Below are positions 1 to 8,459 of a stretch of 29,325 nt of DNA, piece by piece. Positions within the stretch are counted from its first letter, which is position 1, and every line of letters begins with the position of its first letter. This DNA comes from a virus, in IMG/VR virus record IMGVR_UViG_3300032265_001549, positions 1 through 29,325 of that record, one strand, 5' to 3'. The translations under genes were made by a program, and so were the position numbers. A model generated the notes under the pieces. That model was given only the letters and a program-made list of their open reading frames with translations, searched no databases and had not been told where the DNA came from.

Positions 1-156
1 GTCGATGCTGTTCAAGCACTGACCAAAAAGATCACTGAGTTCCGCAAAATCACTTTCGAGTTTGACTGTGTGGACTTTGATGAAATCAGCGAAATGCTGG
101 GCAATATGTTGGGCGAGATTGATTCCCAATTACTTGAGGAGAATTTTGATGAGTAA
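1..156 (+). CDS. 3' end of an unknown early protein (partial)
   Basis: An open frame runs from the first base of the window to a TAA at 154-156 and gives 51 residues, ending in an acidic, Leu/Glu-rich tail (EIDSQLLEENFDE). The true start lies outside the window. The residues visible (KKITEFRKITFEFDCVDFDEIS) look like an ordinary soluble protein and match no family I recognise. The next gene starts inside it at 149 (8-bp overlap), so the two are probably translated from one mRNA. Coding status rests on the open frame, the overlap and codon use like its neighbours. Confidence 0.6.
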   Translation, partial: VDAVQALTKKITEFRKITFEFDCVDFDEISEMLGNMLGEIDSQLLEENFDE

Positions 157-331
157 AATGGCAGAACTAGCATACGATATTGAGCAACTGTACATCGAGG
201 GATTCAGTCCCAAGACCATTGCGGCTCAATTGAATTGTCCACTTGAAACAGTATACGATTGGTTAGAGTCAACGGGTGTGGCAGAAACGCAACAAGACGA
301 ACTCAGCCCGTACAGCACAATGAACAGTTGA
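149..331 (+). CDS. Small helix-turn-helix protein
   Basis: 60 residues starting MSKMAELAYDIEQLYIEG. The ATG at 149 is chosen because GAGGAG (135-140) lies 8 nt upstream; the frame is open further upstream but has no ribosome-binding site there. Residues 8-45 (YDIEQLYIEGFSPKTIAAQL, then NCPLETVYDWLE) have the pattern of a resolvase/sigma-type helix-turn-helix: a helix, a GFSPKTIA turn, then a recognition-like helix ending in VYDWLE. Such short HTH proteins are common in phage early regions. DNA binding is inferred from the motif; no target is known. It overlaps the upstream frame by 8 bp and ends 1 bp before the -35 box of the next promoter. Confidence 0.75.
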   Translation: MSKMAELAYDIEQLYIEGFSPKTIAAQLNCPLETVYDWLESTGVAETQQDELSPYSTMNS

Positions 332-332
332 G

Positions 333-361
333 TTGACACATCGCCCTTTTGGCTGTATAAT
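333..361 (+). promoter_or_regulatory. Early sigma-70 promoter 1
   Basis: TTGACA (333-338), 17-bp spacer, TATAAT (356-361): a perfect match to the consensus. The leader runs to an AAGGAG at 375-380 in front of the GTG at 387. Confidence 0.9.
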
Positions 362-386
362 TAGTTCATACAGTAAGGAGAGCGAT

Positions 387-527
387 GTGAAGATTACCAT
401 TAAGATACCAAAGAAGCATAGGGAACACTTTGTTCTCTTTGCCCAAAATACACCCTTCAAGCAGAAGGTTGTAGAGAGCAAGATTAAGTATAAACGCAAC
501 CCCAAGCACAAAGGACGCGAGCAATGA
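387..527 (+). CDS. Small basic early protein, GTG start
   Basis: 46 residues, starting VKITIKIPKKHREHFVLFAQ and ending in a very basic stretch (KIKYKRNPKHKGREQ). The start is GTG at 387: the ribosome-binding site AAGGAG (375-380) lies just upstream, and the frame's TTG at 333 is inside the -35 box, so it cannot be in the mRNA. An ATG at 385 is followed at once by a stop and is not used. The high Lys/Arg content suggests nucleic-acid contact, which is inference only. Its TGA overlaps the next ATG (ATGA at 524-527), so the two genes are translationally coupled. Confidence 0.7.
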   Translation: MKITIKIPKKHREHFVLFAQNTPFKQKVVESKIKYKRNPKHKGREQ

Positions 528-775
528 GCAATGACGTAGAATTCACCCTAGAGGGATTGAACCCCAAGCAGAAGGCCTTGTGCGACATCATGTGGTCATT
601 CGAAGAGTTCACTGAAGTAGAAGCCTTTATGGCTACCCTGCCCAAGCGTGAGCGTATCGAGTGCGAAGGACTGATCCAAATGATGCGTATGGCCGTGGTA
701 GAACAGTGCTATGATGGCATCCAGAATACCCAGGAAGCTGACCAGGTTATTGCCAAACTGCGGTTGACGAAGTAG
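524..775 (+). CDS. Small acidic early protein, unknown
   Basis: 83 residues, MSNDVEFTLEGLNPKQKALC... with predicted helices (FEEFTEVEAFMATLPKRERIECEGLIQMMRMAVVEQC). No recognised domain. It overlaps the upstream gene by 4 bp (ATGA). Its final codons (Arg-Leu-Thr-Lys-stop) contain the -35 box of the next promoter at 764-769, an economy seen repeatedly in this block. It is probably a small soluble helical host-interaction protein, but there is no direct evidence for a role. Confidence 0.75.
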   Translation: MSNDVEFTLEGLNPKQKALCDIMWSFEEFTEVEAFMATLPKRERIECEGLIQMMRMAVVEQCYDGIQNTQEADQVIAKLRLTK

Positions 776-792
776 GCTTTTGAGAGTATAAT
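764..792 (+). promoter_or_regulatory. Early sigma-70 promoter 2
   Basis: TTGACG (764-769), 17-bp spacer, TATAAT (787-792). The -35 lies inside the end of the preceding gene. The leader ends in AGGAGCGAAC before the ATG at 821. Confidence 0.9.
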
Positions 793-820
793 TACTACTT
801 AAACACACACAGGAGCGAAC

Positions 821-1087
821 ATGAACATAGCAACACTAGAGCAGTATGTAGAGCAGAAGAACAAATGGCGAGCAATCTTTAATCAGAAGCCTTTGAGCTT
901 GTTGAATGGTAAGGATCGCCAGAGCATTGCTAATAGCATTGATAGCGAACTGAGCCCAGAGAACCTTACCTGCGATGGCGAACTGCCTCGCTCAGTGGTT
1001 CAACTCAAAATGCAGATCCTTACTCGCTGTGCAGAAGAGTTGCTCAGCATTGATCCTTCAGTAACCTTTTACGAAATGGGAGTATAA
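821..1087 (+). CDS. Small early protein, unknown
   Basis: 88 residues, MNIATLEQYVEQKNKWRAIFNQK... It is preceded by the canonical cassette leader with GGAGCGAA 5 bp before the ATG, which fixes the start. It is helical and charged and has a Cys in the middle and one near the end (LTCDGEL, LTRCAEELL). I recognise no family. It is the first gene of a four-gene transcript (821-2098) that includes the Api92-like gene one base downstream. Confidence 0.75.
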   Translation: MNIATLEQYVEQKNKWRAIFNQKPLSLLNGKDRQSIANSIDSELSPENLTCDGELPRSVVQLKMQILTRCAEELLSIDPSVTFYEMGV

Positions 1088-1088
1088 T

Positions 1089-1724
1089 ATGCCTAATTGG
1101 TGCAACAACTATCTTGTCTTAGAACACGAAGATCCAGAGATGATCAATCGGGCCAAGAAGGCCTATGCTGATGGTCGCCTGCTTGATGAGTTCTGCCCAG
1201 TGCCTAAGGATCTGCATGTGGTTGCAGGCCGGGTCGGTAATGATGAGGATCCAGAGCAGATTAAGCTCGAAGAAGATACCAAACGCAACCTAGAGGTGCA
1301 TGGCTATGCCAATTGGTATGACTACTGTGTGAACGAGTGGGGCACCAAGTGGGATGTGGGTGGTGATGACATGCTCACAGAAGACGGACCCAATGCCCTG
1401 CGTATGAGTTTTGATAGTGCCTGGGCGCCACCTGTGGCCGCAATGGACAAGTTCATGGACTTGGGCTTTAAGGTCAAGTTGGTCTACTGGGAGTCGGGCA
1501 TGTGCTTCGCTGGCATCTACGACGAGAACGGTGATGACTACTTTGACTACACGGATATGTCGGCTGATGAAGTAGCAGAGTCTATCAATCCTGAGTTGGA
1601 CGAGTGCATGAACATTGTAGAATGCCTGCGTGAGTGGGAAGCAGACAACGAAGAAAACATCGACATCGATCTTGATGGCGGGTTGAGTGCAGTAAACGAA
1701 CAGGGATCAAATGAAAACAAATAA
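1089..1724 (+). CDS. Api92-like ferredoxin-fold phage protein (DUF1281 type)
   Basis: 211 residues. The start MPNWCNNYLVLEHED, followed by NWYDYCVNEWGTKWDVG near residues 75-93 and a W-rich DSAWAPPVAAMDKFMDLGF stretch, is the signature of the Api92-like family found in phages and mobile elements. These proteins have a ferredoxin-like alpha/beta fold with conserved Trp and Asn. The biochemical role of the family is unknown. The tail from about residue 150 is strongly acidic. GGGAG lies at 1078-1082, ahead of the ATG. A TATAAT at 1083-1088 has no -35 partner and is probably coincidental. The gene overlaps the next small frame by 14 bp. Confidence 0.85.
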   Translation: MPNWCNNYLVLEHEDPEMINRAKKAYADGRLLDEFCPVPKDLHVVAGRVGNDEDPEQIKLEEDTKRNLEVHGYANWYDYCVNEWGTKWDVGGDDMLTEDGPNALRMSFDSAWAPPVAAMDKFMDLGFKVKLVYWESGMCFAGIYDENGDDYFDYTDMSADEVAESINPELDECMNIVECLREWEADNEENIDIDLDGGLSAVNEQGSNENK

Positions 1725-1848
1725 ACAGAAGAATCTAGAGCACGATACTAAAATGAAGGAGCGGGTGCGTCCTGCTCCTAAAGAGTATCAATGGGAAGAA
1801 CTAGACAGGATCATGAGACAGTGGGTGACCAAGAATGAGCAGACTTGA
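1711..1848 (+). CDS. Small basic protein, 45 aa
   Basis: A short frame, MKTNKQKNLEHDTKMKERVR... ending WVTKNEQT, not long enough for most gene finders. It overlaps the preceding gene by 14 bp and the following gene by 14 bp, filling what would otherwise be a 110-bp gap in a very compact operon. CAGGGA (1701-1706) lies 4 nt ahead of the ATG and can act as a ribosome-binding site. A second in-frame ATG (1753) and a GTG (1765) next to an internal GGAGCG could be alternative starts. It contains PAPKEYQWEELDRIM, a plausible amphipathic helix. No known family; coding status is inferred from overlap geometry. Confidence 0.5.
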   Translation: MKTNKQKNLEHDTKMKERVRPAPKEYQWEELDRIMRQWVTKNEQT

Positions 1849-2098
1849 ACTGTTTGGTAGGCCCTATGTGGTGTTCGATCCTGAGAATAAGAATCACAGG
1901 GCCTACTACAATGACTTCGTGAACACTGCCAGCTGGGGTGGTTGCCCAGTTCGGTTTGTCTGTCCTGAAGATCATGGCGATTTGGTTACTATGATTCAGC
2001 GTAGTTTGATCAAATTCTATGTTCAGAAAGAGTTCAAAAACAAGCAGAAACCAGCTCCTTTGGTTCGCCAAAAGAGGAAGAAAACGGTTGACAACTAA
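1835..2098 (+). CDS. Small early protein, unknown, basic tail
   Basis: 87 residues, MSRLELFGRPYVVFDPENKNHRAYYNDF... The N-terminal part looks like a compact fold with an aromatic core (RAYYNDFVNTASWGGCPVRFVCPEDHGD). The last 20 residues are basic (KEFKNKQK, RQKRKKT). It overlaps the 45-aa frame upstream. Its last codons (Thr-Val-Asp-Asn-stop) carry the -35 box of the next promoter. No family recognised. Confidence 0.7.
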   Translation: MSRLELFGRPYVVFDPENKNHRAYYNDFVNTASWGGCPVRFVCPEDHGDLVTMIQRSLIKFYVQKEFKNKQKPAPLVRQKRKKTVDN

Positions 2099-2116
2099 CC
2101 AAAATAGTTGTATAAT
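2088..2116 (+). promoter_or_regulatory. Early sigma-70 promoter 3
   Basis: TTGACA (2088-2093), 17-bp spacer, TATAAT (2111-2116). A 7-bp inverted repeat, ACAACTA / TAGTTGT, spans most of the spacer. This promoter departs from the others downstream: the leader is about 60 nt and the gene uses AAGAGG rather than GGAGCGAA. Confidence 0.9.
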
Positions 2117-2176
2117 TGAAACATGCAGAGGAAATAGGTTCCAACGCTAACAACACACACAGAAGAGGTATTTAAA

Positions 2177-2533
2177 ATGGCTACAGATAAATTGTTTACG
2201 GTTGCTGGTATTAGTAAATTGGATGGCGAGTACAAGGTTCGATTCGCAAATGATATGATGCGTATCAAGGTTTTGGCTAAGAGTGGTCACGAAGACATTC
2301 GATTGGCTGATCTTGAGAAGTCTGTTTCTAAGCTAGAGGCTGCAAAGATCCTCTTGGGCTTGGACGAGTTCAGTGATGCAATTGCTCAGGCAACCATCTC
2401 CGAGTACTTGGAAGACAAGACTCCTAAAGCCAAGACAGCACCTGCTCCTAAGGCAGCTCCAGTGAAAGCCAAGGCACCTGCAAAGGCCAAGACTACAACC
2501 AAGGTAACTGAGGACGAAGACGCTCCTTTCTAA
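2177..2533 (+). CDS. Lys/Ala/Pro-tailed early protein ending in an SSB-like acidic tip
   Basis: 118 residues. Residues 1-78 form a compact domain (MATDKLFTVAGISKLDGEYK, then VRFANDMMRIKVLAKSGHED). Residues 80-110 are a flexible Ala/Pro/Lys linker (KAKTAPAPKAAPVKAKAPAK). The protein ends TEDEDAPF. An Ala/Pro linker plus acidic-aromatic tip is the design of bacterial SSB proteins, whose DDDIPF-type tip recruits partners. The gp32 protein at 25520-26521 also has an Ala/Pro-rich region with DDDAPF. The likeness is seen in the sequence; that it binds SSB partners or DNA is inference. A ribosome-binding AGAAGAGG lies 8 nt before the ATG, a different leader from the GGAGCGA genes. Confidence 0.75.
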   Translation: MATDKLFTVAGISKLDGEYKVRFANDMMRIKVLAKSGHEDIRLADLEKSVSKLEAAKILLGLDEFSDAIAQATISEYLEDKTPKAKTAPAPKAAPVKAKAPAKAKTTTKVTEDEDAPF

Positions 2534-2536
2534 ACT

Positions 2537-2719
2537 ATGTTTCGACAGTACGAAGTCTGGGGTGTACTCGATGATCATGAAGAGCTCATCGAGTGCGTAG
2601 GAACCCTTAAAGAAGCGGAGCTCATAGCTGAACAGCAACTAGAGTCTCATGATGAAGTTTATATCCTAGAGGATACAGATGACGAACTGAAAGAAGTACG
2701 ACGATATCAGGGCCTATAG
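2537..2719 (+). CDS. Small acidic protein overlapping the tRNA gene
   Basis: 60 residues, MFRQYEVWGVLDDHEELIEC..., strongly acidic (YILEDTDDELKEV). It follows the preceding stop by 3 bp, so it is co-transcribed with it. The last three codons and the TAG stop (2717-2719) lie inside the first bases of the tRNA (2710 on), so ribosomes finish translation within the tRNA 5' end. No family recognised. Confidence 0.65.
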   Translation: MFRQYEVWGVLDDHEELIECVGTLKEAELIAEQQLESHDEVYILEDTDDELKEVRRYQGL

Positions 2720-2786
2720 CTCAGTTGGTTAGAGCAGAGGACTCATAATCCTTTGGTCCCTGGTTCGAGTCCAGGTGGGCCCACCA
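2710..2786 (+). tRNA. tRNA-Ile2 (CAU anticodon, lysidine type)
   Basis: A complete cloverleaf can be drawn. Acceptor GGGCCTA (2710-2716) pairs with TGGGCCC (2776-2782) with one G-U. D stem GCTC/GAGC is 2719-2722/2732-2735. The anticodon stem is 2737-2741/2749-2753, with CAT at 2744-2746. T stem CCTGG/CCAGG is 2759-2763/2771-2775 with loop TTCGAGT. CCA is encoded at 2784-2786. CAT could be Met or Ile2. The C4-G69 and C5-G68 pairs are the known TilS (lysidine synthetase) determinants of tRNA-Ile2, and the T-T-G-G-T-C variable region resembles bacterial Ile2, so Ile2 reading AUA is the better call. It has no promoter of its own and is probably cut from the 2177-2719 transcript. Confidence 0.95.
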
Positions 2787-2791
2787 CTAAG

Positions 2792-2828
2792 GAAAGGCAG
2801 TTGATTTCGGTTGACTGCCTTTCGTTTT
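2792..2828 (+). terminator. Intrinsic terminator after the tRNA, overlapping the next promoter
   Basis: GAAAGGCAGT (2792-2801) pairs perfectly with ACTGCCTTTC (2814-2823). Two G-U pairs and an A-T extend the stem inward, and CGTTTT follows. The 3' arm contains the -35 box (2811-2816) of the next promoter. Confidence 0.75.
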
Positions 2829-2839
2829 GACTGTATAAT
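2811..2839 (+). promoter_or_regulatory. Early sigma-70 promoter 4
   Basis: TTGACT (2811-2816), 17-bp spacer, TATAAT (2834-2839), leader with AAGGAGCGAAG before the ATG at 2868. The -35 is embedded in the 3' arm of the tRNA terminator. Confidence 0.9.
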
Positions 2840-2867
2840 TAACACATAAACACAGCAAGGAGCGAAG

Positions 2868-3065
2868 ATGGGTTACAAGGTTCTTAACACCGTAGACAAC
2901 ATGCGTGATGCATATGGCCCGCGTGATGGTTTAGAAGGCCCATTCAACTTCAACGGGCGTGTGTTGTACTACGATCCTAAGGAAGGCAAGTACTACGATC
3001 CCCGCACAGATTTCTATGTGAGCCACTCGGAGTACTTTGAGATGGTGGGCTTGATTGTAAAATAA
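2868..3065 (+). CDS. Small Tyr/Asp-rich early protein, unknown
   Basis: 65 residues, MGYKVLNTVDNMRDAYGPRD... with a tyrosine-rich, repeated YYDP pattern (VLYYDPKEGKYYDPRTDFYV). The start is fixed by GGAGCGAA 3 bp upstream. The YYDP repeats suggest a small beta-rich fold. No family recognised. It is a single-gene transcription unit between two cassettes. Confidence 0.75.
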   Translation: MGYKVLNTVDNMRDAYGPRDGLEGPFNFNGRVLYYDPKEGKYYDPRTDFYVSHSEYFEMVGLIVK

Positions 3066-3068
3066 CGG

Positions 3069-3097
3069 TTGACTGAACTTCCCAAACAGTGTATAAT
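3069..3097 (+). promoter_or_regulatory. Early sigma-70 promoter 5
   Basis: TTGACT (3069-3074), 17-bp spacer, TATAAT (3092-3097), leader with AAGGAGCGAAAC before the ATG at 3127. Confidence 0.9.
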
Positions 3098-3126
3098 TAA
3101 CACTTAAACACAGCAAGGAGCGAAAC

Positions 3127-3366
3127 ATGTTAGATCAAGTAACCAAATACGAAATCAATGGCAAGACCTACGAACAAGAGCACGGCAATGCATTTGATCG
3201 TGGGAGTGCAGACAGCTGGTACCATCGTTCACGCCGCCCACACAAAGGTGGCAGTGGCGGCCGCTTTGGACACAAACCCGACTTCAATCTCACAGCAGAC
3301 GAGATGGAAGCCTACCACGCAGGCTATGACTACAATGAGCAGTTTGGCGGCAAGAAAGAATGGTAA
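3127..3366 (+). CDS. Small Gly/His-rich early protein, unknown
   Basis: 79 residues, MLDQVTKYEINGKTYEQEHG... The middle is rich in Gly, Arg and His (WYHRSRRPHKGGSGGRFGHK), followed by TADEMEAYHAGYDYNEQFGG. The start is fixed by the cassette ribosome-binding site. The segment AFDRGSADSWYHRSRRPHK resembles short phage proteins in which AxDRGxADxxYxRxxxPH is conserved, but their role is unknown. An open frame shifted by one over 3158-3376 is a shadow of this gene. Confidence 0.75.
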   Translation: MLDQVTKYEINGKTYEQEHGNAFDRGSADSWYHRSRRPHKGGSGGRFGHKPDFNLTADEMEAYHAGYDYNEQFGGKKEW

Positions 3367-3372
3367 AAACGG

Positions 3373-3401
3373 TTGACTGACCTTGCTCAAAATGCTATAA
3401 T
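3373..3401 (+). promoter_or_regulatory. Early sigma-70 promoter 6
   Basis: TTGACT (3373-3378), 17-bp spacer, TATAAT (3396-3401). The downstream ribosome-binding site is AGGAGCACAAG, a diverged version of GGAGCGA. Confidence 0.9.
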
Positions 3402-3434
3402 ACACACATGGACACAAACACACAGGAGCACAAG

Positions 3435-3890
3435 ATGGATTACGAAAACACAGTAGACACCCAACGGGGCATGGCACAGATGCTGGGCAAGACCTTCGTT
3501 AAGGTCACTGGTTCAGTAGGCTCAGGAGAGATGTTGTTTGAAACAGCTCAAGGTGAGCGATTCCTATTTGCTCATATGCAAGACTGTTGCGAATCAGTGG
3601 ACATCAACGACATCGTTGGTGACCTGCAGGACTTGGTAGGCGAGCCTTTGTTGATGGCCGAGGAAGTGAGCGGATACATTGGCCCAGAGCCAGAGTACCA
3701 CGACAGCTACACCTACACCTTCTACAAGTTCGCAACCCGTAAGGGCTATGTGGATGTTCGTTGGTTAGGTGAGTCCAACGGCTACTACAGCGAGTCTGTA
3801 AGCCTGTTCGTAGAAGGTGTGTCTGGGTTGGAAGAGCCTAACGGTACTACTAACCTAGGCGCTCTGCTTCGTGAGAAATTGAACGGTTGA
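3435..3890 (+). CDS. DUF7448-like phage protein
   Basis: 151 residues starting MDYENTVDTQRGMAQMLGKT. The frame has an earlier ATG at 3408, but the AGGAG at 3423-3427 lies between them and every other cassette puts its AGGAG just before the start, so 3435 is preferred. GEMLFETAQGERFLFAHMQD, CCESVDINDIVGDLQDLVGEPLL and FATRKGYVDVRWLGESNGYY are hallmark stretches of a family of phage and bacterial proteins labelled DUF7448, of unknown function. The conserved DCCE and GESNGYYSE motifs are both present. Its stop codon TGA (3888-3890) is part of the next -35 box. Confidence 0.8.
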   Translation: MDYENTVDTQRGMAQMLGKTFVKVTGSVGSGEMLFETAQGERFLFAHMQDCCESVDINDIVGDLQDLVGEPLLMAEEVSGYIGPEPEYHDSYTYTFYKFATRKGYVDVRWLGESNGYYSESVSLFVEGVSGLEEPNGTTNLGALLREKLNG

Positions 3891-3915
3891 CACTCTGCCC
3901 AAAAGGCAGTATAAT
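3887..3915 (+). promoter_or_regulatory. Early sigma-70 promoter 7
   Basis: TTGACA (3887-3892), 17-bp spacer, TATAAT (3910-3915). The spacer carries CTGCC-CAAAA-GGCAG. The -35 contains the stop codon of the upstream gene. The leader has GGAGCGAAT before the ATG at 3949. Confidence 0.9.
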
Positions 3916-3948
3916 ACACACATACAAACAAACATTGGAGCGAATACA

Positions 3949-4389
3949 ATGAATGAATTCAAAAGCTGGGAAGAGATGACTACCCTGGAGCAGTATGCTT
4001 GCACCTACTGGGACATGTACAAGGATGCCTACGGCGTTCGTCCCCGCGGCATTGATACCACACTCTGGACAGAGTCGGACTTTGAACGTGAGTTCGTTCA
4101 GTTAGGTCGCACCATTGACGCCAACTATGCAGAGCAAGTGATTGCTGAAGAGCAGGCTATGATTGCATTTGAAATGCGGGTGCAGAGCTTGATGACATCC
4201 GGTGCTAAGGACTATGAAATGGCCTTGCGTTGGGTACACGAAGCTGAAGGTAGCAATGGTGACGAAGAGTACCTCTGCTTCCTGGTCGGCCTCCCATATG
4301 GCTACTTCCGTCAGCAGACTCCTGTTGATGCTCGAGAGTATGCAGAACTGGCGGCTGATTTGGATGCTATCTCCTACGGAGTTGCATAA
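3949..4389 (+). CDS. Conserved phage hypothetical, 146 aa
   Basis: MNEFKSWEEMTTLEQYACTY, then WDMYKDAYGVRPRGID near residues 21-36. This WDMYKDAYGxRPRG block recurs in many phage hypothetical proteins, but no function is known. The rest is helical and acidic (ANYAEQVIAEEQAMIAFEMR). The start is fixed by GGAGCGAAT, 8 bp upstream. The stop TAA overlaps the ATG of a tiny membrane protein (TAATG at 4387-4391), so translation of the two is coupled. Confidence 0.8.
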   Translation: MNEFKSWEEMTTLEQYACTYWDMYKDAYGVRPRGIDTTLWTESDFEREFVQLGRTIDANYAEQVIAEEQAMIAFEMRVQSLMTSGAKDYEMALRWVHEAEGSNGDEEYLCFLVGLPYGYFRQQTPVDAREYAELAADLDAISYGVA

Positions 4390-4490
4390 TGGACGAGATC
4401 TTATACGCCTTTTACATGACAATGGAACTGTGGATTTTCTGCGGTGTGCTGTTGACAGCTTTGGTGATTGAAGCTATAATTAAGACTTAA
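4389..4490 (+). CDS. Tiny membrane protein A (33 aa)
   Basis: MDEILYAFYMTMELWIFCGV followed by LLTALVIEAIIKT: a short N-terminus and one hydrophobic helix (about residues 5-30). It shares the pattern FYxTMELWIF with a second tiny protein at 4843-4983. Both follow a larger soluble gene with a start/stop overlap, and both have the next gene's promoter near or within their 3' half. Here the whole promoter at 4452-4480 lies in the coding sequence, and Ala-Ile-Ile-Lys spans the TATAAT. Paralogy at a syntenic position strongly supports real coding. The location is probably the inner membrane; the role is unknown. Confidence 0.7.
   Translation: MDEILYAFYMTMELWIFCGVLLTALVIEAIIKT
4452..4480 (+). promoter_or_regulatory. 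Early sigma-70 promoter 8, inside a gene
   Basis: TTGACA (4452-4457), 17-bp spacer, TATAAT (4475-4480), entirely within the 33-aa membrane protein gene. AGCTT/AAGCT forms an inverted repeat across the spacer. The leader ends AAGGAGCGAAAC before the ATG at 4514. Confidence 0.9.
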
Positions 4491-4513
4491 ACAGCAAATA
4501 AGGAGCGAAACTT

Positions 4514-4846
4514 ATGCAACTGCTAATCACTACACAAACACAAGAGAACTACGGTGCCCATGATTGGGACGGCGAAGGTGAGTGCCCACAGTACTGGAAG
4601 TTCAAAGGCGGCCAGGATTACAAGTATAGCCTGGGCAAGTTTGGTCGCAGTGAAGAAGCCGTCACTGAGTTGGTAATGGCCCTGCGCGGTCAGATTGAAG
4701 AAGACAATGACTACTACCGCAACCACATCATTGGTTGGGAAGTAGTGGCAGACGACTACCTAACTGAGTTCGAGCAGAGCCAGTTGGAGTACGATGGGCG
4801 CATCACATACCCCGCAACTGTTCTTACCTTAAAGGAAACAGCATGA
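4514..4846 (+). CDS. Conserved phage hypothetical, 110 aa
   Basis: MQLLITTQTQENYGAHDWDG, then ECPQYWKFKGGQDYKYSLGK. Short phage proteins starting M-x-LLITTQxxENYGxH with a following YWKxKGG motif are frequent in large phages, with unknown function. The C-terminal part (NHIIGWEVVADDYLTEFEQS) is acidic. The start is fixed by GGAGCGAAA, 6 bp upstream. The stop overlaps the ATG of membrane protein B (ATGA at 4843-4846). It forms a soluble/membrane gene pair, like 3949-4490. Confidence 0.8.
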   Translation: MQLLITTQTQENYGAHDWDGEGECPQYWKFKGGQDYKYSLGKFGRSEEAVTELVMALRGQIEEDNDYYRNHIIGWEVVADDYLTEFEQSQLEYDGRITYPATVLTLKETA

Positions 4847-4983
4847 ACGATATCATCTTGGCATTCTATTACACTATGGAACTGTGGATCTTCTTAGCCG
4901 TCCTAGGCATTGCCCTGTTGGTTGAAGAAGGCATTGTGGCCTACAACAGGAAGAAGTTGGTTGACAATCCCACGCTTTGGTAG
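4843..4983 (+). CDS. Tiny membrane protein B (46 aa), paralogue of A
   Basis: MNDIILAFYYTMELWIFLAV, LGIALLVEEGIVAYNRKKLV, then DNPTLW. One hydrophobic helix (residues 4-27) is followed by a positively charged NRKK, so the C-terminus is probably cytoplasmic. Aligned with protein A, it shares FYxTMELWIF and the following AL-V-E pattern. It starts inside the stop of the upstream gene (ATGA). Its final codons Val-Asp-Asn carry the next -35 box, and its TAG stop is immediately followed by the TATAAT. Too short for standard ORF thresholds, but the paralogy makes it credible. Confidence 0.75.
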   Translation: MNDIILAFYYTMELWIFLAVLGIALLVEEGIVAYNRKKLVDNPTLW

Positions 4984-4989
4984 TATAAT
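4961..4989 (+). promoter_or_regulatory. Early sigma-70 promoter 9
   Basis: TTGACA (4961-4966), 17-bp spacer, TATAAT (4984-4989). The -35 and spacer lie within membrane protein B. The leader has CAGGAGCGAACC before the ATG at 5021. Confidence 0.9.
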
Positions 4990-5020
4990 TAAGACTTAAA
5001 CAGCACACAGGAGCGAACCT

Positions 5021-5224
5021 ATGCGTACACAAACTACCCGACTGCTTGAGATGATGGACGAAGGTCTTATCAGCGCCCAAGCCATTGCAGAGATGGCACT
5101 GGCTTACATGTCAGAAGATGACGTGGCAGACATGATGAGAGCCAACGACATCCTGGAAGATGACGAGGATGATGGACAACCTGACGAAGCCCAGGAGTGG
5201 GAATCGTTTGACGCTGACTGCTAA
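5021..5224 (+). CDS. Small very acidic early protein
   Basis: 67 residues, MRTQTTRLLEMMDEGLISAQ, AIAEMALAYMSEDDVADMMR, then an Asp/Glu-rich tail (DILEDDEDDGQPDEAQEWES). The first 45 residues are two or three helices. The MALAYMSEDDVxDM block is seen in other phage hypotheticals, with no known function. Net charge is very negative, as in DNA-mimic or anti-host proteins, but that role is only a possibility. The start is fixed by GGAGCGAA. Confidence 0.75.
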   Translation: MRTQTTRLLEMMDEGLISAQAIAEMALAYMSEDDVADMMRANDILEDDEDDGQPDEAQEWESFDADC

Positions 5225-5230
5225 TAGCAG

Positions 5231-5259
5231 TTGACAGGCCAGCCAAAAGGCTTTATAAT
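5231..5259 (+). promoter_or_regulatory. Early sigma-70 promoter 10
   Basis: TTGACA (5231-5236), 17-bp spacer containing AGCC-AAAA-GGCT, TATAAT (5254-5259). The leader has AGGGAGCGACCC before the ATG at 5292. Confidence 0.9.
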
Positions 5260-5291
5260 AGACACATAGCAACAAATAGGGAGCGACCCAA

Positions 5292-5675
5292 ATGGCTAAA
5301 TTAAATTATGACAAGTTCGCCAGCTTCGACCTTAACGAAGCCTGTGACCACTTTGACTGTACAGATCAAAAGGCCTGGAAGAAGATCCGCCCTTTCATCG
5401 TAGCAGACGGCACTGAGTACGAAGCAGTGATGACAGACAGCTTTGACTTCTACGACATTGAAGAACCAGAGTACGAGGCCTTTGCCGCAGGTGTTAAGTA
5501 TGCTATGAGCAAGATGAATACAGCATTTGAAAAGGCAGGCGTAGAGCTTCAGATATGTGAAGTGGATTTGGTAGATGCTTCGGGCTTTATGATGGTTCGT
5601 TGCGATGACGAGCCAGAAGACTTTGTCAAACGAGTGCTGAAGAAGCCTGTCTTAATGGTTGACAGCTGGGTCTAA
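5292..5675 (+). CDS. Early protein, unknown, 127 aa
   Basis: MAKLNYDKFASFDLNEACDH, then FDCTDQKAWKKIRPFIVADG. Acidic and aromatic, with mixed alpha/beta character and no recognised motif. It has three cysteines in the first two-thirds (ACDHFDC, ICEVDLVD) and one near the C-terminus. The start is fixed by GGGAGCGA. The last residues (Met-Val-Asp-Ser-Trp-Val) encode the -35 of the following promoter. Confidence 0.75.
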   Translation: MAKLNYDKFASFDLNEACDHFDCTDQKAWKKIRPFIVADGTEYEAVMTDSFDFYDIEEPEYEAFAAGVKYAMSKMNTAFEKAGVELQICEVDLVDASGFMMVRCDDEPEDFVKRVLKKPVLMVDSWV

Positions 5676-5687
5676 AGCTGTTATAAT
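5659..5687 (+). promoter_or_regulatory. Early sigma-70 promoter 11
   Basis: TTGACA (5659-5664), 17-bp spacer, TATAAT (5682-5687). ACAGCT/AGCTGT is a 6-bp inverted repeat across the spacer. The leader has TGGAGCGAAAC before the ATG at 5721. Confidence 0.9.
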
Positions 5688-5720
5688 ACATACTTACACA
5701 ACACAATGGAGCGAAACATT

Positions 5721-6041
5721 ATGGTAACAGCAGAACAGATCCGTAGCGGCAAGGCACTTGCAGAACAAGCTGGCTTGAGCATGTACCAACAGATTGGCGA
5801 GCGCGATGCTTGCGGCTTTGGTTGGGTAGAGGTGTACGTGGATCGTACCAACTCCAAGCAGGCCAAGGAGCTGATTGCCGCAGGCTTCCGCAAGGACTAC
5901 AAACCCAAATGCCTCAGCATGTGGGATCCAGCTGGCGTGCCTACACAAAGCATCTCAGTCAAAGAAGCGGGTGCAGATGCCTACGCTAAGTATCTGCAGA
6001 CTTTGGGCTTGCGGGCCTATGGTTGCAGTCGTTTAGATTAA
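5721..6041 (+). CDS. Early protein, unknown, 106 aa
   Basis: Starts MVTAEQIRSGKALAEQAGLS. The in-frame ATG at 5706 overlaps the ribosome-binding sequence GGAGCGAA, so the ATG at 5721 is the better start. The protein looks like a compact alpha/beta domain (GERDACGFGWVEVYVDRTNS, then KQAKELIAAGFRKDYKPKCL). No family recognised. It is followed by the last promoter cassette, the only one with a degenerate -35. Confidence 0.75.
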   Translation: MVTAEQIRSGKALAEQAGLSMYQQIGERDACGFGWVEVYVDRTNSKQAKELIAAGFRKDYKPKCLSMWDPAGVPTQSISVKEAGADAYAKYLQTLGLRAYGCSRLD

Positions 6042-6050
6042 CCAAATCAC

Positions 6051-6079
6051 ATGACAGGCCCGGGAGGGTCTGTTATAAT
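6051..6079 (+). promoter_or_regulatory. Early sigma-70 promoter 12
   Basis: ATGACA (6051-6056), 17-bp spacer, TATAAT (6074-6079). ACAGGCCC-GGGA-GGGTCTGT makes an 8-bp stem (one G-T) across the spacer. The leader has AAGGAGCGATAG before the ATG at 6111. Confidence 0.85.
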
Positions 6080-6110
6080 GTAAATATTAATTAACACAAA
6101 GGAGCGATAG

Positions 6111-6995
6111 ATGGCGAAAGTTGTTACATCAAAGATGTTGATGGCCTTGCAGAGTGAAGTCTCAAGCAAGACCTTGGAAGTGGAAACAGTTAAGAAGGAT
6201 CTGCGCAACGAGACTGACGAGGACATTTTGAATCGTCTACGTGAACGTTTTGAGATCCTTGATGACATGACTCGTGCAGTTAAGTCGGGCAAGGTACGTG
6301 CTATGATTGTCACAGGCCCTCCAGGTGTGGGCAAGAGCCACGGTGTTGAGACAGTACTTGCCAAGCATGATGTGTTCGCTAACGTGGCACAGGACGAGAA
6401 GCTAAAGAAGTACGAAGTTGTGAAAGGCGCCATGAGTGCCTTGGGACTCTACTCCAAGCTGTACCACTACAAGGATGCCAAGAACATTCTAGTGTTTGAC
6501 GACTGTGACTCAGTGTTGTTGGATGACTTGAGCTTGAACATTCTCAAAGCCGCCCTGGACACATCCAGCAAGCGAATGATCCATTGGAACACTGACAGTC
6601 ACTTGTTGCGCAGAGAAGGCGTGCCAGACAGCTTTGAGTTCAAGGGCGGTGCTATCTTCATCACCAATATCAAGTTCGATCACGTGAAGAGCAAGAAGCT
6701 TAGGGATCACTTGGAAGCATTAGAGAGCCGTTGCCACTACTTGGACCTTACCATTGACACTGAGCGTGAGAAGATCCTGCGCATTGAACAGGTGGTGAAC
6801 GAGTGTGGCATGCTGGACAAGTATGAGTTCGAAGACTACCAGAAGATGGAAGTTGTGGACTTTGTCAAGGCCAACGTGGCACGCCTGCGTGAGCTCAGCT
6901 TGCGTACAGTCCTTAAGGTAGCGGACCTCAAGCATGGCTTCCCGGACAAGTGGCGAGCTGTAGCAGAGGTAACGTGTATGCGCAACAGCCGTTAA
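6111..6995 (+). CDS. AAA+ ATPase
   Basis: 294 residues. Walker A GPPGVGKS is at 69-76, Walker B ILVFDD at 126-131, a sensor-1-like FITN (Asn186) follows, and an arginine-finger candidate is Arg207 in LEALESRCH. The order and spacing are those of an AAA+ module (about residues 60-215) with a C-terminal helical lid (IDTEREKILRIEQVVNE...). The N-terminal 50 residues look like a coiled coil. It is the largest early-region gene and the last before the small RNA. Phage AAA+ proteins of this size act as remodelling or loading ATPases; the partner is unknown here. It lacks DnaA- or DnaC-specific motifs that I can identify. The start is fixed by GGAGCGA. Confidence 0.85.
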   Translation: MAKVVTSKMLMALQSEVSSKTLEVETVKKDLRNETDEDILNRLRERFEILDDMTRAVKSGKVRAMIVTGPPGVGKSHGVETVLAKHDVFANVAQDEKLKKYEVVKGAMSALGLYSKLYHYKDAKNILVFDDCDSVLLDDLSLNILKAALDTSSKRMIHWNTDSHLLRREGVPDSFEFKGGAIFITNIKFDHVKSKKLRDHLEALESRCHYLDLTIDTEREKILRIEQVVNECGMLDKYEFEDYQKMEVVDFVKANVARLRELSLRTVLKVADLKHGFPDKWRAVAEVTCMRNSR

Positions 6996-7021
6996 GAGCT
7001 GTAGCCTACAGGACTGCCCAA

Positions 7022-7080
7022 CGATTCGCTCCCGGCAAGCAGTCCACAAAAGATGTCATAAGCCCGATTCGCTCCCGGCA
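7022..7080 (+). repeat. Direct repeat of the 16-nt anti-RBS loop
   Basis: CGATTCGCTCCCGGCA occurs at 7022-7037 and 7065-7080 with no mismatch, each copy enclosed by its own unrelated stem. Confidence 0.95.
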
Positions 7081-7090
7081 GCATCTTTTC

Positions 7091-7126
7091 AATCCCCAAG
7101 TCTAACACGGCAAGGGGATTTTTTTT
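7091..7126 (+). terminator. Intrinsic terminator of the early block / small RNA
   Basis: AATCCCC (7091-7097) pairs with GGGGATT (7114-7120), and the T-run reaches 7126 (eight T in all). Orientation is plus only, since the other strand has no U-tract. Confidence 0.9.
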
Positions 7127-7318
7127 GAGAAACTTTTCAGAGACCGACCGGGACAATAAAAGAATTTTTCCACCACCGACCGGCATATACATACGCAATG
7201 TTAGTAACTACTAACTAGCGCATGGGTACCGAAGTATTTTCACCCCTCTAAATCTATAAGTACTTCTTTATAATTTTTTGCGCGGGTGTTTTTTTGATCC
7301 TGCAGGACCCATTTCTGG
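7127..7318 (+). other. Non-coding junction between early and late blocks
   Basis: No convincing gene. It contains two copies of ACCGACCGG (7143-7151 and 7175-7183), a small hairpin GTTAGT-AACT-ACTAAC (7200-7215), one copy of the dispersed AAGTACT...TTTTTTGCGC element (7258-7283) and the palindrome TCCTGCAGGA (7298-7307) just before the late promoter. AT-rich with T-runs; it could hold replication or regulatory sites, but none is recognised. Confidence 0.5.
7258..7283 (+). repeat. Dispersed intergenic element, copy 1
   Basis: AAGTACTTC, then an AT-rich centre, then TTTTTTGCGC. Related copies are at 8729-8755 and 9539-9564. Confidence 0.55.
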
Positions 7319-7811: not shown

Positions 7812-8459
7812 ATGCGATACAAAGAATTCTCGGAATCTCTAGCTCTTTCCCTTGCTAAAGGTCTTGGACGCTTGGTCGCTCCTGTGCGCACAGTAGGCGG
7901 CAACAATCTCTATCACGCCACTGATGCCGCTGGGCTTCGAGGCATACTAAGTTCAGGACATATACGTGCCACTCAAGGTCCGCAAACTGCCACACAGTTC
8001 CAAACTGCCCGGCCCACAGTAAGCGTTACTAGAGATTGGAACTATGCCATGGGCAAAGGTGCTCAAACCAACATAGGGCATGATGCCATCATAGTAATGG
8101 ATCGCAGTCAACTGGAGCAGTCATATCGTACCTTGGGCACTAGCCAAAGTCAAGATGTGCGTGGCTTGGCCGCTCCTGAAATAGAACCTTACAAAGTAAA
8201 AATACAGCGTAACAAAGTGGCTTTCAATCGAAACAGTCCAGATGCTGATGTACGCAATAAGTACACAGCTCCACATGCGGGCGGAGAAAGTGAAGAAGCT
8301 GTGGTAGTTCCTAAGGGTACATTGCCCACGGATCACATGGTAGGATTTTACGTCAATCCCAAGAGTGAGTTGCGTCAAGATCCTGCCATAATGGCAGATC
8401 CACGCAGACTGGAACTGGCACCTGGTGGCACTGGCAGATTTGTTCCGGCCAATCCCTAA
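7812..8459 (+). CDS. Late protein with ADP-ribosyltransferase-like domain
   Basis: 215 residues, start MRYKEFSESLALSLAKGLGR. Residues 33-53 (LYHATDAAGLRGILSSGHIR) match the opening of many ART-fold domains: an aromatic-His pair, then a helix with a GILxxG(x)I motif. A serine strand follows (TVSVTRDWNYAMG, 69-81), and late in the domain comes a Glu-rich strand (GESEEAVVVP, 158-167). The His/Ser/Glu order is that of the ART superfamily; which Glu would be catalytic cannot be said. Alternatives are a KptA-like RNA phosphotransferase or an inactive ART fold. The upstream TTCAAATA is 3 nt before the ATG, with no clear ribosome-binding site. Expression is probably late, so the protein may be virion-delivered. 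Confidence 0.6.
   Translation: MRYKEFSESLALSLAKGLGRLVAPVRTVGGNNLYHATDAAGLRGILSSGHIRATQGPQTATQFQTARPTVSVTRDWNYAMGKGAQTNIGHDAIIVMDRSQLEQSYRTLGTSQSQDVRGLAAPEIEPYKVKIQRNKVAFNRNSPDADVRNKYTAPHAGGESEEAVVVPKGTLPTDHMVGFYVNPKSELRQDPAIMADPRRLELAPGGTGRFVPANP

Follow-up and report, generated by a model that had tools for sequence, protein, structure and literature searches.

The window, by which is meant the whole stretch of DNA analysed (29,325 nucleotides), is a 29-kb virus record in its entirety. Its plus strand carries a presumably early block (1-7130) of small genes, mostly of unknown function, of which the last encodes an AAA-ATPase that has T4 nrdC.10 among its relatives. The minus strand encodes a DnaB-like helicase, a primase, a UvsX-like recombinase, a single-strand binding protein and tail proteins. 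A tRNA gene (2710-2783) lies within the early block, as does a gene (2177-2533) for a small protein with a lysine/alanine-rich tail whose own ribosome-binding site is not GGAGCGA. A 215-residue protein without a PHROG or Pfam match is encoded at 7812-8459, and its YHATDAAGLRGILSSGHI resembles, by eye, a putative ADP-ribosyltransferase-type fold. In several cultured phage records the relatives of the ATPase are annotated as thioredoxin, an annotation apparently carried over from the gene name nrdC.10.

The features that bear on the element behind the ATPase gene are listed below; promoters are from a promoter scan, candidate target sites with GGAGCGAA from octamer counts and duplex energies, and those with GGAGCGA from sequence and duplex energies.

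333-6079, plus strand: twelve sigma-70-like promoters, most of them directly before a candidate target leader
812-819, plus strand: candidate target site GGAGCGAA, gene 821
2859-2866, plus strand: candidate target site GGAGCGAA, gene 2868
3117-3124, plus strand: candidate target site GGAGCGAA, gene 3127
3937-3944, plus strand: candidate target site GGAGCGAA(T), 9/9 loop bases matched, gene 3949
4502-4509, plus strand: candidate target site GGAGCGAA, gene 4514
5010-5017, plus strand: candidate target site GGAGCGAA, gene 5021
5280-5286, plus strand: candidate target site GGAGCGA, gene 5292
5708-5715, plus strand: candidate target site GGAGCGAA, gene 5721
6051-6079, plus strand: sigma-70-like promoter of the ATPase mRNA, the transcript with the element at its 3′ end
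6101-6107, plus strand: candidate target site GGAGCGA, gene 6111 (ATPase)
6111-6995, plus strand: AAA-ATPase gene (phrog_1250, by PHROG match), with the candidate target site GGAGCGAT before its ATG and the element in its 3′-UTR
7011-7045, plus strand: hairpin 1, with loop AUUCGCUCC at 7024-7032 (fold, and covariation in 16 relatives)
7048-7089, plus strand: hairpin 2, with a loop identical to that of hairpin 1 at 7067-7075 (fold and covariation)
7091-7126, plus strand: intrinsic terminator hairpin and T tract (sequence and fold)

An earlier note on this DNA had described two hairpins with unrelated stems, a common loop and a terminator, and this arrangement was recovered at 7011-7045, 7048-7089 and 7091-7126. 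The outer stem of hairpin 1 pairs 7011-7017 with 7039-7045 (GGACTGC/GCAGTCC), and a top stem of C7022-G7034 and G7023-C7033 presents the loop ATTCGCTCC (7024-7032). In hairpin 2 the outer stem pairs 7048-7055 with 7082-7089 (AAAAGATG/CATCTTTT), and CCG at 7064-7066 pairs with CGG at 7076-7078 below the same loop, ATTCGCTCC (7067-7075). The loop is identical in both hairpins, as had been claimed, yet its supposed size of 16 nt proved to be a 9-nt loop atop a short stem. The terminator stem (7091-7097/7114-7120) is followed by T up to position 7126. Folding of the whole element is modestly more stable than that of shuffled sequences (z -1.56); this score is weak by itself, and support for the structure is comparative.

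Relatives of the locus are viral contigs, and the removal of duplicates left 112 ATPase loci, two of which are distant cultured-phage relatives. With these two left out, TCGCTCCC occurs within 450 nt downstream of the ATPase stop in 109 of 110 distinct loci; in the exception (L089) the loop is found some 590 nt farther downstream, after a different gene. The eight core bases of the loop were fixed by the search itself, whereas its presence in 109/110 loci was not, and chance is rejected as the source of the loop at ATPase-linked loci. Loci and open reading frames were picked mechanically, and related loci are non-independent events. The loop is found twice in 99 of the 109 loci, once in 8 and three times in 2, and a few loci have lost one copy; in most loci the second loop is within the terminator hairpin itself. 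Across the 212 copies GATTCGCTCCC is near-invariant and the flanks are variable, with G at -3 and A at -2 in 210 copies each and T at -1 in 203, all three positions being outside the search core. The 9-nt loop is closed by G(-3) and C(+7), below which the pairs -4/8 and -5/9 are C-G, T-A or G-C, with some unpaired A-G. In one locus, L164, the stems are 9 bp long and the loop is shortened to UCGCUCC. In another (L147) a third hairpin 3′ of the ATPase has, by eye, the identical 9-nt loop closed by A-T instead of G-C, which fits compensation at the closing pair. Hairpins that lack the loop complementary to ribosome-binding sites often have another, of the form AAGCCAACAAGGCAA (in the window AAGTCTAACACGGCAA, 7094-7117), and this second type is also seen in middle hairpins 3′ of the ATPase in relatives such as L099, L103 and L107.

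Covariation was assessed over 19 stem pairs in 16 elements built like that of the window. Here 98.7% of cells are paired, and 11 pairs are changed on both sides, with all six outer pairs of hairpin 1 and five of the eight outer pairs of hairpin 2 changed in this way. The covariation score is 0.552 compared with 0.159 for shuffled data, none of 500 shuffles reached either the observed paired cells or the observed score, and pairing falls to 37-49% when the partners are slid. The stems of related phages therefore do show the compensatory changes that the earlier note had looked to as a check.

Within the window the loop segment UUCGCUCC is the exact complement of GGAGCGAA, the site of the early genes, so that the reverse complementarity first noticed from the sequence alone holds. 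Sites with GGAGCGAA precede the ATG of exactly the seven early genes that had been named, and GGAGCGA precedes genes 5292 and 6111. The window contains 9 copies of the octamer TTCGCTCC where 0.51 would be expected and shuffled sequences gave at most 3, and these copies are the seven GGAGCGAA sites and the two hairpin loops; chance is rejected as the source of this excess. No GGAGCGA site was found on the minus strand of the window. Among 41 leaders tested against the loop, the nine target leaders have predicted duplex energies from -12.1 to -14.1 kcal/mol and the best of the others has -9.0 kcal/mol; for shuffled leaders the 1% quantile lies at -10.1 kcal/mol. Most non-target leaders of the window have energies within the range of shuffled values. 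An equally good match to other leaders had been set beforehand as grounds for giving up the idea, and the early leaders match far better.

The same site recurs among the relatives, where GGAGCGA accounts for 457 of 1075 distinct early sites (43%) compared with 2.2% of GGAG elsewhere on the strand; no preference for GGAGCGA was found at minus-strand sites of the same loci. In a set of 749 promoter-linked sites, picked regardless of CGA, position +4, directly after GGAG, is occupied by C in 698 (93%), by A in 36, by T in 15 and never by G. The information content is 1.58 bits for C at +4 and 0.82 for G at +5, with 0.1-0.6 at most leader positions, and, GGAG apart, +4 is more informative than the remainder of the leader. 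A G at +4 is what 16S rRNA pairing would favour, so the conserved C needs a different cause, which the loop supplies; the argument that conservation of CGA calls for a cause beyond ribosome binding is borne out to this extent. The sites are also tied to promoters, with a sigma-70-like promoter just upstream of 94% of GGAGCGA sites; the figures are 75% for the remaining GGAGC sites, 18% for sites lacking C at +4 and 5% for random windows. The twelve promoters of the window match 11 or 12 of 12 consensus bases and have a 17-nt spacer.

The position of the element relative to these sites is equally regular. Of the GGAGCGA sites within 7 kb of an element, 117 of 119 are upstream of it, and the element can therefore be said to close the early block across loci, as had been noticed in the window; in large contigs most GGAGCGA starts are grouped in a single block next to the element. 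In loci that have 8 or more sites the share of GGAGCGA varies from 6% (L164) to 75% (the window), and that of GGAGC from 57% to 92%. In L164, which has the clearest departure from the loop sequence, the lowest GGAGCGA share coincides with common use of GGAGCA, which leaves a mismatch with the loop. Relatives in which the loop had changed and the early sites had not, which could have spoken against a link between the two, were not found among the loci examined. The further expectation that loop and ribosome-binding site would co-vary did not hold, although the stems do compensate: the core and the sites never vary together, and at the one variable loop base that was followed (-1) the +7 base of the site does not follow. 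The predicted pairing of loop and site is thus backed by joint invariance and not by covariation.

Placement of the loop is not confined to the ATPase gene, as it is also found on unrelated stems behind two further gene families. The first encodes a small protein that is, judged by eye, homologous to the product of window gene 2177-2533, and here the final codons of the gene contribute to the stem; these homologs in other phages thus have the loop element in their own 3′-UTR. The second encodes a small winged-helix protein. Carriers in both families have no GGAGCGA of their own (e.g. AGAGGTAATTATC), and GGAGCGA clusters are nearby on the same strand; in G013, for example, such sites at 189-206 kb surround the elements found at 193.7 and 203.6 kb. 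Matches to the 16-mer in bacterial genomes are about as many as chance would give (roughly 120 for 16 bases in 257 Gb) and were left unused; some viral matches away from the ATPase look like chance too.

The earlier proposal of a small RNA is supported as far as the element is concerned, although a separately transcribed unit is less likely. A sigma-70-like promoter just before the element was not found in 108 of 109 loci, the remaining one having a promoter-like match, and the element is therefore most likely the 3′-UTR of the ATPase mRNA, or a product processed from that transcript. Our preferred reading, which we consider probable from the sequence comparisons and from precedents for the mechanism in NfeR1 (PMC10746234) and c4 RNA (review PMC12197685), is that this 3′-UTR, whole or processed, represses the early regulon, including the ATPase, by pairing with ribosome-binding sites. 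Each early mRNA would start at a strong host-type promoter and have an A-rich leader that offers GGAGCGA(A). The element, at the end of the ATPase mRNA, may be kept whole or be processed to a stable RNA of 100-130 nt. In the infected cell the two exposed UUCGCUCC loops would pair in trans with the extended ribosome-binding site GGAGCGA(A) that the early mRNAs share, and would bar access of the ribosome, so that early proteins, the ATPase among them, would be turned down as the RNA accumulates. The outcome would be negative feedback together with a common, timed shut-off of the early genes, to which the two loops would add redundancy; the replication genes, encoded on the other strand and without the site, would escape.

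Were the loops to pair solely with the site of their own ATPase mRNA, with the other early genes sharing GGAGCGA for a different reason, the missing promoter would be accommodated as well, and so would the ATPase's own site, which is GGAGC in 95 and GGAGCGA in 74 of 102 relatives. The icaR 3′-UTR provides a precedent for such action in cis (PMC3868564, available in part). It is nevertheless unlikely to be the whole explanation, as GGAGCGA is enriched over hundreds of other early genes and the element elsewhere follows genes whose sites are not GGAGCGA while GGAGCGA genes are nearby. A little less likely again is that the loop is bound by a protein that acts on mRNA stability, termination or translation and that its resemblance to the complement of the early sites plays no part in pairing; a near-invariant loop on variable stems fits this too, but such a reading predicts neither that the loop is exactly complementary to these sites nor that G is avoided after GGAG at the 749 sites. 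Leaders are A-rich and similar from one early gene to another, and part of the sharing of sites could stem from copied promoter-leader modules. That copying is the only reason, and the loop match a by-product without function, is improbable, however, in view of the information at +4, which exceeds that of most leader positions, and of a loop that outlasts the turnover of its stems and recurs in unrelated 3′-UTRs, as a by-product would not. Least credible is a double-stranded DNA signal, TTCGCTCC/GGAGCGAA, read by a phage protein with the hairpins incidental, since such a reader would indeed meet one octamer in loop and site alike, but a DNA reading gives no reason for the fixed strand of GGAGCGA before early-strand starts or for its complement in loops with compensated stems followed by terminators.

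Repression of the early regulon by the 3′-UTR is accordingly retained as the preferred reading, and it can be set against known systems. No Rfam family matched above its gathering score, and loose thresholds gave just weak, unrelated matches; no description of the element was found in the literature searched, a statement that covers the searched library and the named collections. Among cultured phages no DNA match to the window was found, two structural or unknown window proteins had no match, the ATPase relatives L169 (46% identity) and L170 (38%) had neither element nor GGAGCGA sites, and a search for intermediate phages from the PA5oct ATPase found none. We lean, with some reserve, towards an uncultured large-phage lineage that has a private extended ribosome-binding site and a matching 3′-UTR RNA closing its early mRNAs together, a one-to-many timing switch whose loop would be mobile between unrelated 3′-UTRs and stems.

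The nearest architecture found in the literature searched appears to be that of alpha-r14/NfeR1 of Sinorhizobium meliloti, one of the ‘cuckoo’ RNAs, in which three hairpins with unlike stems share an identical, ultraconserved anti-Shine-Dalgarno motif and silencing is by covering translation initiation regions (PMC10746234). The element likewise has an identical unpaired motif of this kind in redundant loops on several stems of unrelated sequence, and its proposed repression would also act by covering initiation regions. However, alpha-r14/NfeR1 is an independently transcribed sRNA that directs CCUCCUCCC at general Shine-Dalgarno sites and host genes, whereas the element is most likely a phage 3′-UTR, and its loop reads past the Shine-Dalgarno core into the phage-specific CGA(A). 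The element would work like alpha-r14 and is not filed as a member because the defining motif CCUCCUCCC is absent from its loops, which read AUUCGCUCC. The LhrC sRNAs of Listeria monocytogenes (e.g. PMC4132741, available in part) are multi-site and bind the Shine-Dalgarno regions of several mRNAs through CU-rich stretches, but are host-encoded, Gram-positive and built on a CU-rich motif rather than UUCGCUCC. The nearest 3′-UTR case is the icaR mRNA of Staphylococcus aureus, in which a 3′-UTR motif pairs with the Shine-Dalgarno site and lowers translation (PMC3868564, as far as that source was available); similarly, the element is directly 3′ of the ATPase stop and is able to pair with the Shine-Dalgarno site of the ATPase mRNA itself, yet icaR acts on its own mRNA and the match of the element spans a whole gene set. 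The nearest phage case is the c4 antisense RNA of phages P1 and P7, which uses complementary sequences presented in loops to pair around a ribosome-binding site of the phage, so blocking its translation (review PMC12197685), and the element too has an exposed loop exactly complementary to phage ribosome-binding sites. While c4 has one target (ant) and serves immunity control, as known phage RNAs of such kind usually address one target, the element matches many early genes, nine in the window and many per relative, which would make it a small RNA regulator of a whole temporal class. This would explain the avoidance of GGAGG and the retention of GGAGC in these phages, and an antagonist RNA, rather than the ribosome, would then determine part of the ribosome-binding site.
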